Shown here piece after piece: positions 15,665 through 63,998 of a stretch of 64,000 bases of DNA (its first letter is position 1; every line of letters begins with the position of its first letter). The DNA is from Coriobacteriia bacterium. Lineage in GTDB: Bacteria; Actinomycetota; Coriobacteriia; Anaerosomatales; PHET01. A program made the translations under genes and the position numbers. A model generated the notes under the pieces. That model was given only the letters and a program-made list of their open reading frames with translations. It did not search any database and was not told the DNA's origin. The stretch covers positions 65,238-129,237 of the forward strand of contig JAXMKZ010000004.1 of the NCBI GenBank assembly GCA_034370385.1, in the 5' to 3' direction.

Positions 15665-16342
15665 TCAGCCGACTGCCCCGAACACGTCGAAGACGACGAC
15701 GAGGTAGTAGACGGCCACGCTCGTCATCACCGCACCGGCCACGAACGAGATCGCTCGCTCCCGCTCGACGAGCACGTTGACCATCCGCCGGCTCGCCGCG
15801 CGGGTGACCAGCGAGAACGCGATGAGCGGCGTGCCGATACCGAGGCCGAAGGCCACGAAGTTGGCCAGACTCGCAACGGGGTCGGTCACCAGCACGCTTC
15901 GGGCGAGGAACGCAGCGATGAAGGCAGGGTTACAGGGGATGACGATGGCGCCGAAGAAGAAGCCGTAGAGGTAGCTCGCCAGCAGCGGATTCTTCGGCTC
16001 GGGCAACCGCACTTTGCGACGGACCTCGACGCCGGCCATCATGAGCACGCCGATGACCGCCAGAATGGCGAACGCTATCGGCGAGATGACTCCGATGACC
16101 TGCTGAAGCGACTCCTGCAGCAGGGTCGTGAAGACGAGCCCGAGGATGAGCATGAAGCTCACCACGCCTGCGGTCACCACGAGACCCGTGAGGGCCAGCA
16201 CCCGACGATCATCTCGATCGGCGTTGGCAAGCCGCGCCATGCGAGCAAGGAACGCGGGATACAGCGGAATGACGCACAGCGCCGTCAGCGGCGTCAGAAG
16301 ACCGAGCAGGTAGCTCGCTCCCACAAAGCGAAACCAGTCCAC
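15665..16342 (-). CDS. ccdA: CcdA/DsbD-type transmembrane thiol-disulfide electron carrier
   Basis: A 225-residue integral membrane protein with about six hydrophobic segments. Two cysteines lie in membrane-helix contexts with nearby prolines: C23 (TALCVIPLYPAF) and C137 (VIPCNPAF). This is the cysteine pair CcdA proteins use to move reducing equivalents from cytoplasmic thioredoxin to an extracytoplasmic partner. The GTG start at 16342 lies 3 nt beyond the TGA stop of the selenothioredoxin gene, so the two are coupled. In CcdA operons the adjacent TlpA/ResA-like protein is normally the electron acceptor; here that partner has Sec in place of Cys. Confidence 0.88.
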   Translation of the reverse strand: MDWFRFVGASYLLGLLTPLTALCVIPLYPAFLARMARLANADRDDRRVLALTGLVVTAGVVSFMLILGLVFTTLLQESLQQVIGVISPIAFAILAVIGVLMMAGVEVRRKVRLPEPKNPLLASYLYGFFFGAIVIPCNPAFIAAFLARSVLVTDPVASLANFVAFGLGIGTPLIAFSLVTRAASRRMVNVLVERERAISFVAGAVMTSVAVYYLVVVFDVFGAVG

Positions 16343-16345
16343 CCG

Positions 16346-16960
16346 TCAGCGTCCTTTCGCGATCTCGGACTTCAGCTCTTCGATGTCTTTGAGCCCGCTC
16401 GGCAGCAACCGGGCCGAAGTCTGGTCTGCCGAGATGAGCACGATAGGCGCCTGCGGCGGCGTCACGATCTCGGGACCGAATTCCTGAATCAGCGCGGCAG
16501 TGAGGGGTCCTGGAGATATCGCGACCGGCTCAGTGAGCCCACGCTCCTTCCACACCTGACGCAGCAGTCCCGCGTCCTCGTTCTCGTCGATGCCCAGTGC
16601 CACCAGAACCGTCACGCGGTCCTCGTCCAGCAGCTCATCCAAGATGGCCTGCTGGCGCTTGCACGTGCTTCACCAGGTGGCGAAGGAGTGCAGCAACACG
16701 GGCTTGCCCTTGTAGTCGGCAAGCCGGAACTGCTTGCCCGTCACGGCGTCCTCGAGTTCCGTGTCGAGCCAAGCTATCTGGCTCGCGGGCGGCGATGTCG
16801 GTGCCGGATCGGGCTCGGCGGTGTCAGGAGCCGCCGTGTCCGTCGCGGGTTCCGAGGGCACCGTCGGCACCTGGGCGACCGGCTCCGGCGAGGGGGTGCA
16901 TCCTATTCCCACCACCGCGATCAGCAGCGTCGCGAAGGCGAGTATCATCCTGTACCTCAT
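16346..16960 (-). CDS. Thioredoxin-fold (TlpA/ResA-like) lipoprotein, probable selenoprotein with in-frame TGA
   Basis: Read through the TGA at 16672-16670 this is a 204-residue protein. Start ATG 16960 has an AGGAG ribosome site 5 nt upstream. Residues 1-21 form a lipoprotein-type signal ending VGIGC; 22-60 is a Pro/Thr/Ala linker; the thioredoxin fold begins at about 62. The strand before the active site (GKPVLLHSFATW, 85-96) is followed by TGA-Ser-Thr-Cys-Lys, so TGA lies exactly at the first cysteine of a WCxxC motif (U97, C100). The same frame continues with a normal TlpA-like C-terminal half, including an APIVLI segment with the expected cis-Pro, to a TGA stop at 16346. A 7-bp perfect hairpin follows the TGA. 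A nonsense mutation is the alternative. Confidence 0.87.
16627..16655 (-). promoter_or_regulatory. Candidate bacterial SECIS hairpin
   Basis: Starting 15 nt after the in-frame TGA, CCAGCAG (16655-16649) pairs perfectly with CTGCTGG (16633-16627). Inside the 15-nt loop, CATC and GATG can pair again around a TTG triloop, giving an extended imperfect hairpin with its apex about 28 nt after the TGA. Bacterial SECIS elements lie within the coding region just downstream of UGA with the loop about 16-37 nt away and a G in or near the loop, which fits. No folding energy was computed. Confidence 0.65.
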
Positions 16961-17071
16961 GTGACTCCTGTCGTCGTGGGTCGTGATGATGATACCCACG
17001 CACCGACGCTAGCGACGCCCCGCGACAGGGCATAGACTACGGCGGTGGCCCGACAACCTTGGGAGATTCAG

Positions 17072-63338: not shown

Positions 63339-63998
63339 CTACTCAGCTTCGCCGGAAGCGGTCGTCAGTAGTGACGGATCGGGCACTGCTTCGGCAGCTT
63401 GCTTGAACAGGTCCGGGTTGATGTGGCAGTACCCGCCCGGGTTCTTGTCGAGGTAATCCTGGTGGTACTCCTCGGCGGGTGTGTAGTTCTTGAGCGGTTC
63501 GGCTTCGATGACCACGGGCCGGTTGTAGCGCTTCTGAAGCCTATCGAGCGAAGCCTCGACTACCTCGCGATCCGCAGGGTCTGAATAGTAGATGCCCGTG
63601 CGGTACTGCGTGCCCCGATCGTTGCCCTGCCGGTTGAGCGACGTGGGATCGACGACCTCGTAGTACAGGTCGAGCAGGAACGGCAGCGGCGCGACGGTGG
63701 GGTCGTAGTCGACGCGCACGGTCTCGGTGTAGCCGGATCGGCCAGATGACACGTCGCGGTATGTCGGCGAATCGGTGATTCCGTTGGCGTAGCCGCTTTC
63801 TGCGTTCATGACTCCGCGCACCGATGCCAGGTACTTCTCGACGCCCCAGAAACAACCGCCTGCCAGGTAGATGGTAGCCACGCCTTCGCCTCCTGATGTG
63901 TCCGTCGACGAAGCCACATCGGCTTCGTTTCGCTGATTCGAGACGGTGCCTGTCGACACACATCCCGAGACCGCGATCGCGAGAACGAGCAGAACCAC
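63339..63998 (-). CDS. msrA: Peptide-methionine (S)-S-oxide reductase, probable lipoprotein
   Basis: Repairs oxidised methionine. The readable part is 219 residues. An N-terminal hydrophobic stretch ends in lipobox AVSGC (about residue 12), then a Ser/Thr/Glu linker, then the MsrA fold: YLAGGCFWGVEKYLASVRGV (catalytic Cys in GCFWG), VDYDPTVAPLPFLLDLYYEV, RGTQYRTGIYY, YHQDYLDKNPGGYCHINPDLF. The first Met reads from a GTG two bases from the window edge, so the real start, and a normal-length signal peptide, may lie outside. An exported MsrA needs an extracytoplasmic thiol reductant. Confidence 0.92.
   Translation of the reverse strand: MVLLVLAIAVSGCVSTGTVSNQRNEADVASSTDTSGGEGVATIYLAGGCFWGVEKYLASVRGVMNAESGYANGITDSPTYRDVSSGRSGYTETVRVDYDPTVAPLPFLLDLYYEVVDPTSLNRQGNDRGTQYRTGIYYSDPADREVVEASLDRLQKRYNRPVVIEAEPLKNYTPAEEYHQDYLDKNPGGYCHINPDLFKQAAEAVPDPSLLTTASGEAE

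Follow-up and report, generated by a model that had tools for sequence, protein, structure and literature searches.

Is the short minus-strand region that conventional ORF calling divides into two pieces (16346–16642, 98 amino acids from a TTG start, and 16670–16999, 109 amino acids) the remnant of a gene broken by a stop codon, or one intact gene in which UGA is read as selenocysteine (Sec)? The question arises in a 64,000-nucleotide stretch of the genome of a Coriobacteriia bacterium, called the window here, and a sequence-only reading of it had favoured the second answer, proposing one continuous frame that automatic annotation would split. The split is indeed what standard ORF calling produces, and translation of 16346–16960 on the minus strand (the reading had given no strand) bears out the continuous frame, in which a TGA at codon 97 is the sole interruption of 204 codons. 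From 16960 down to 16346, the frame runs through an ATG, a hydrophobic segment, Cys21, a low-complexity linker, W96, the TGA and S98, T99, C100 and K101, to a terminal stop that is itself TGA (16348–16346). Its active-site context, FATW-TGA-STCK, puts the internal TGA at the first Cys of a WCxxC motif, after W96 and before Ser-Thr-Cys-Lys, just as had been read from the letters. What looks like a stop-broken gene is almost certainly intact, its product being a membrane-anchored redox protein that contains selenium and acts together with the membrane electron supplier encoded next to it (Table 1).

Table 1. Coordinates of the putative selenoprotein gene, its elements, its operon partner and one possible client in the window
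Feature	Position	Strand	Basis
Complete Redoxin/thioredoxin-fold lipoprotein gene, 204 residues, Sec97-Ser-Thr-Cys100	16346..16960 (terminal stop included)	minus	Translation with TGA as U; alignment of 12 homologues; Pfam; AlphaFold
In-frame TGA, codon 97, predicted to be read as selenocysteine, first position of UxxC	16670..16672	minus	TGA in all 13 Sec-clade members
Cys100 codon, putative resolving cysteine of the UxxC motif	16661..16663	minus	Invariant in all aligned homologues
Cys21 lipobox codon, end of N-terminal hydrophobic helix, predicted lipid anchor	16898..16900	minus	Cys21 conservation; N-terminal helix in the model
Probable bacterial SECIS hairpin	16632..16669	minus	Folds, covariation in the clade and excess structure; geometry ambiguous in this gene
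CcdA/DsbD-transmembrane-type electron carrier, 225 aa, Cys23 and Cys137	15665..16342	minus	Starts 3 nt after the selenoprotein stop
Lipoprotein MsrA (peptide methionine sulfoxide reductase, GGCFWG), possible client	63339..63998	minus	PF01625, 202 bits; ATG just beyond the window edge

A six-frame search with stops read through, covering 61 genomes (the source genome and 60 relatives of the same order), returned 12 full-length homologues from several families, this gene included. Each of the 12 has a single in-frame TGA, which the DNA places at the same codon every time, in the context FA[VT]W-TGA-xxC; the split frame is thus far beyond chance. A public-genome scan contributed 80 named loci; it has a partial bias, as a Cys codon is built into one of its two search patterns, and the order, class and phylum searches are free of this bias. 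The sequence-only reading had suggested asking whether the column holds Cys or TGA in homologues: it holds TGA in the 13 members of the Sec clade and TGT or TGC in 71 other relatives, which belong to Chloroflexota, Spirochaetota, DPANN and other archaea, Halobacteria and a few more groups. The TGA loci of the public scan come from Anaerosomatales/Coriobacteriia, with one MAG labelled Actinomycetota (L056) and one labelled Bacillota (L069). Neither TAA nor TAG was found at the Sec site in relatives from the order, class, phylum and public-genome searches. A TAA flagged in the phylum search (G668, L158) is where a Cys-form gene, with TGC as its active-site codon, normally ends. Furthermore, the second half of the gene is undisrupted and the sequence after the TGA is under purifying selection, dN being far below dS downstream of it (0.07 versus 0.59 in the closest pair; four other pairs agree in direction).

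All Sec proteins group together in a single clade (bootstrap 100), its support being 100/97 among 82 sequences and 100/99 in a focused set that includes actinobacterial Cys forms. A quick tree put three of these Cys forms, on long branches, within the clade; the careful tree built from trimmed sequences puts them outside it. The most economical reading is that Sec arose once in this lineage. Among named organisms, the closest to the gene are MAGs of Anaerosomatales/Coriobacteriia, the former having once been called OPB41 (PMC9686372). The homologue in the MAG labelled Bacillota (K_DeepCast_150m) nests in the Coriobacteriia clade and its genome has a tRNA-Sec, the locus being either a misassigned MAG or a horizontal transfer. 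At another locus (L019 and L049, G045 contig C36), the 3′ end of the Sec homologue runs into the ccdA region without a stop of its own and the ccdA start looks truncated, reflecting a deletion, a fusion or an assembly error.

A search for selA, selB, selD and a tRNA-Sec had also been proposed, and all four are present in the genome. On contig C11, a tRNA-Sec (69 bits, anticodon UCA) lies beside SelB, SelA and SelD (357, 609 and 349 bits, all above curated cut-offs). The SelD frame extends upstream through an in-frame UGA at TQLSSKAG-U-AAKWG (L047:13821-14990), which we take to be the usual Sec/Cys position of SelD, so that this SelD is probably itself a selenoprotein. Since SelD needs that in-frame UGA, the Sec pathway itself probably relies on UGA being read as Sec. 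The selenoprotein interpretation as a whole is supported: missing Sec machinery, other stop codons at the site in relatives and a disrupted second half, which the sequence-only reading had named as signs against it, were looked for and none was found.

The published model of the bacterial SECIS places a hairpin 16–37 nt after the UGA, with G in the first two loop positions (PMC13188914). It is matched by most Sec homologues, in which a stem with the loop AGUU lies 16 nt after the UGA (for example, CCGCC-AGUU-GGCGG). Three pairs of this stem show changes on both sides, and the covariation score is above those of shuffles and slid controls. When the 45 nt from the UGA were compared with random synonymous recoding, the mean z was −1.65 for Sec genes versus −0.30 for Cys homologues and −0.19 for other windows of the same Sec genes, and the combined z for Sec genes, treating related genes as independent, was −6.0. 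The present gene has a z of −2.2 and two competing folds, one with the loop AGCA 16 nt after the UGA and the other a longer CCAGCAG/CUGCUGG hairpin; three of the 13 Sec genes (L019, L025 and L027) have little or no excess structure. Rfam gave no match in the gene region. A SECIS is therefore supported for the Sec clade, its exact form in this gene being ambiguous.

The protein matches Pfam Redoxin (PF08534) with 39 bits against a gathering cut-off of 26.6, as do all 12 Sec homologues at their own scores, and it also meets AhpC-TSA. The sequence-only reading had called it a TlpA/ResA-like thioredoxin lipoprotein, a description that stands for the fold, the lipobox and the likely style of action and fails for membership of the curated families: ResA (NF002854, 34.8 bits) and TlpA (NF047696, 33.3 bits) are the best NCBIfam matches yet fall far under their cut-offs of 170 and 230, and DsbE is likewise far under. 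It thus resembles ResA, TlpA and DsbE in fold and active-site position and differs from them in these scores, in having Sec in place of Cys and in belonging to a wider family that is also archaeal. The ResA-like WAxxUGC family (NCBIfam NF041054), in which Sec also lies near the active site, has it in a different motif, UGC, and scores 23 bits here against a cut-off of 300. The thioredoxin-like selenoprotein SaoT (NF040730) gave no match at E up to 0.1, and we rejected a Sao transporter operon, as the adjoining ABC transporter is of the OsmF/ProV osmoprotectant type. The AlphaFold model has a mean pLDDT of 90, and its nearest solved structures are ResA, which is nearest in fold, other thiol-disulfide reductases and the pneumococcal lipoproteins Etrx1 and Etrx2.

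Cys21 is present in 13 of 13 Sec forms and 52 of 71 Cys forms, and lipid anchoring is predicted from the lipobox motif. A second pair of cysteines, at reference positions 177 and about 204 (the C-terminus), is complete in 63 Cys forms and replaced at both positions in 22 proteins (13 Sec and 9 Cys), with never one cysteine alone among the 85 proteins; the two probably form a disulfide. The Sec clade is accordingly without a second cysteine pair that most Cys forms carry, although a strict link between Sec and this loss was rejected, as nine Cys forms lack the pair too.

Proteins of the CcdA/DsbD type pass electrons from cytoplasmic thioredoxin to extracytoplasmic partners with a thioredoxin fold. 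The product of the adjoining gene matches Pfam DsbD_TM with an E value of 8e-6, just under the cut-off, and has exactly two cysteines, both at conserved positions and both kept in 81 of 91 aligned relatives. Genes of the selenoprotein family stand next to ccdA at 77 of 80 related loci, archaeal and bacterial, and therefore the lipoprotein and the CcdA-type protein very probably act together. A precedent exists in Streptococcus pneumoniae, where CcdA–Etrx pathways feed extracellular MsrAB and the etrx2–ccdA2 operon is bicistronic (PMC3914529). There, too, a thioredoxin-fold protein with a lipobox is encoded with ccdA, and Etrx chains rank among the top matches to the selenoprotein in both sequence and fold; Etrx proteins, however, have two cysteines rather than Sec and Cys, and the present operon is without an msrAB gene. 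The sequence-only reading had mentioned neither the coupling to ccdA, nor a hairpin downstream of the UGA, nor the lineage's other extracytoplasmic selenoproteins.

We consider it highly probable that this is a true selenoprotein gene in a two-gene operon, its Sec97 lipoprotein being fed by CcdA and reducing extracytoplasmic substrates. For the gene, the case is sequence-based and draws on the frame, TGA conservation, the Sec machinery, the operon, the lipobox, the predicted fold and the excess RNA structure. We infer that Sec is incorporated at residue 97, where SelB and tRNA-Sec would decode the UGA, aided by the RNA hairpin just downstream, and that the product would be exported and lipid-anchored outside the cytoplasmic membrane, its thioredoxin-like domain bearing the Sec-x-x-Cys redox site. 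By analogy, electrons would flow outward from CcdA to the UxxC lipoprotein, the adjoining CcdA-type protein handing cytoplasmic electrons to this site, with Sec97 as the attacking and Cys100 as the resolving residue. The reduced selenol/thiol pair would then reduce oxidised extracytoplasmic substrates, as Etrx–CcdA does in pneumococcus.

Lipoprotein MsrA enzymes would be the likeliest clients and are, by inference, the best candidates, DUF3179-type proteins being another possibility in relatives. The source genome has two lipoprotein MsrA genes, a Cys form at the window edge and a UGA form on contig C11 (G000 contig C11:165289-165696; L172:1279-2058, minus strand), which has a lipobox and one TGA at the catalytic residue (GLG-U-FWG) and is probably an extracytoplasmic selenoprotein MsrA. 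Matches to PF01625 with one in-frame TGA occur in 37 of the 61 order genomes, and such Sec-MsrA genes are found in 10 of 12 genomes with the gene versus 27 of 49 without it, a weak co-occurrence (P = 0.07, phylogeny ignored); a near-complete genome that carries the gene (G006) gave no MsrA match. At six archaeal Cys-form loci, msrA follows ccdA. Cys loci also have, downstream of ccdA, 32 ORFs that cluster together and whose typical product is DUF3179-like and bears a CPLC motif; it was identified by eye and is backed by PF11376 matches with the same motif in relatives. Four order genomes (G028, G033, G020 and G049; loci L167, L168, L169 and L170) have DUF3179 lipoprotein-like genes whose CPLC motif includes a TGA (TF-U-PLCGS); these genes probably encode Sec-DUF3179, and two further DUF3179 genes (L165 and L166) have Cys at that site. 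A lineage-wide extracytoplasmic selenium circuit, running from CcdA through the UxxC lipoprotein to other lipid-anchored selenoproteins (Sec-MsrA, for example, and Sec-DUF3179 in some relatives), is a tentative idea that we think somewhat unlikely. If true, it would make selenium electron transfer outside the membrane a general strategy there, not an isolated Cys-to-Sec swap.

Could the protein instead be a ResA/CcsX-type apocytochrome c reductase of System II maturation, and not a general or Msr reductase? Its fold is nearest to ResA, and two ResB genes of the genome adjoin multihaem cytochrome genes with no ResA-like WCxxC gene beside them. Because no ResA neighbours the ResB and multihaem cytochrome genes of this genome, we leave this role a modest share of the probability and judge it unlikely. 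The distribution of ResB disfavours a dedicated role in cytochrome c maturation: convincing ResB is found in 8 of the 12 order genomes with the gene versus 41 of the 49 without it, and a 98% complete genome that has the gene (G033) gave no ResB match. The ResA family score of 35 against a cut-off of 170 also speaks against such a role, as does the Cys-form cassette being common in DPANN archaea, which are not known for System II cytochromes. The two ResB loci (L204 and L205, G000 contig C19) lie by multihaem cytochrome genes that include a 1903-codon open frame with 26 CXXCH motifs.

A peroxiredoxin-like peroxidase, its selenol acting directly on peroxides, would fit the Pfam Redoxin and AhpC-TSA matches; we think it quite improbable, however, given that the motif at the thioredoxin position is WUxxC, that a conserved proline follows further along the chain, that the closest structures are thiol-disulfide reductases and that the protein is paired with CcdA. 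A dead thioredoxin gene with a nonsense mutation, or a sequencing or assembly error, would account for the split frame, but is ruled out for practical purposes by conservation and selection, that is, by a TGA at the identical codon in 13 divergent homologues of several families, with Cys in all other relatives, and by purifying selection after it, besides the complete Sec machinery. The chance that UGA is read as another amino acid, through general reassignment or a suppressor tRNA, is equally negligible: the frame would be open under any sense reading of UGA, but the gene terminates at a TGA of its own, and the Cys column, SelABD and tRNA-Sec together leave nothing at the site to explain.

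UxxC selenoproteins in a 2026 review of the prokaryotic selenoproteome include a Prx-like thiol:disulfide oxidoreductase (PF00578), a Redoxin family protein (PF08534) and a thiol-disulfide isomerase-like protein (cd02966) (PMC13188914). The present protein is like them in its broad domain families and UxxC motif, compared by description and not by sequence, and the general kind, as UxxC Redoxin/AhpC-TSA proteins, is therefore already known. The same review makes no mention of CcdA or of Actinomycetota, and no NCBIfam model fits the CcdA-coupled Sec clade. A literature search, with subscription papers mostly outside it, found nothing relevant that joins selenoproteins with CcdA/DsbD and lipoproteins, which is weak evidence. 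The CcdA-coupled selenium version thus appears to be undescribed.

With this finding, the extracytoplasmic selenoproteins gain a clade whose genes are split under conventional calling, and the known use of selenium is extended in an environmental actinobacterial order with few cultured members. Cys orthologues that share the ccdA partner occur widely among archaea and bacteria, so that the two forms make a natural Cys/Sec pair for asking what selenium brings to an extracellular reductase.
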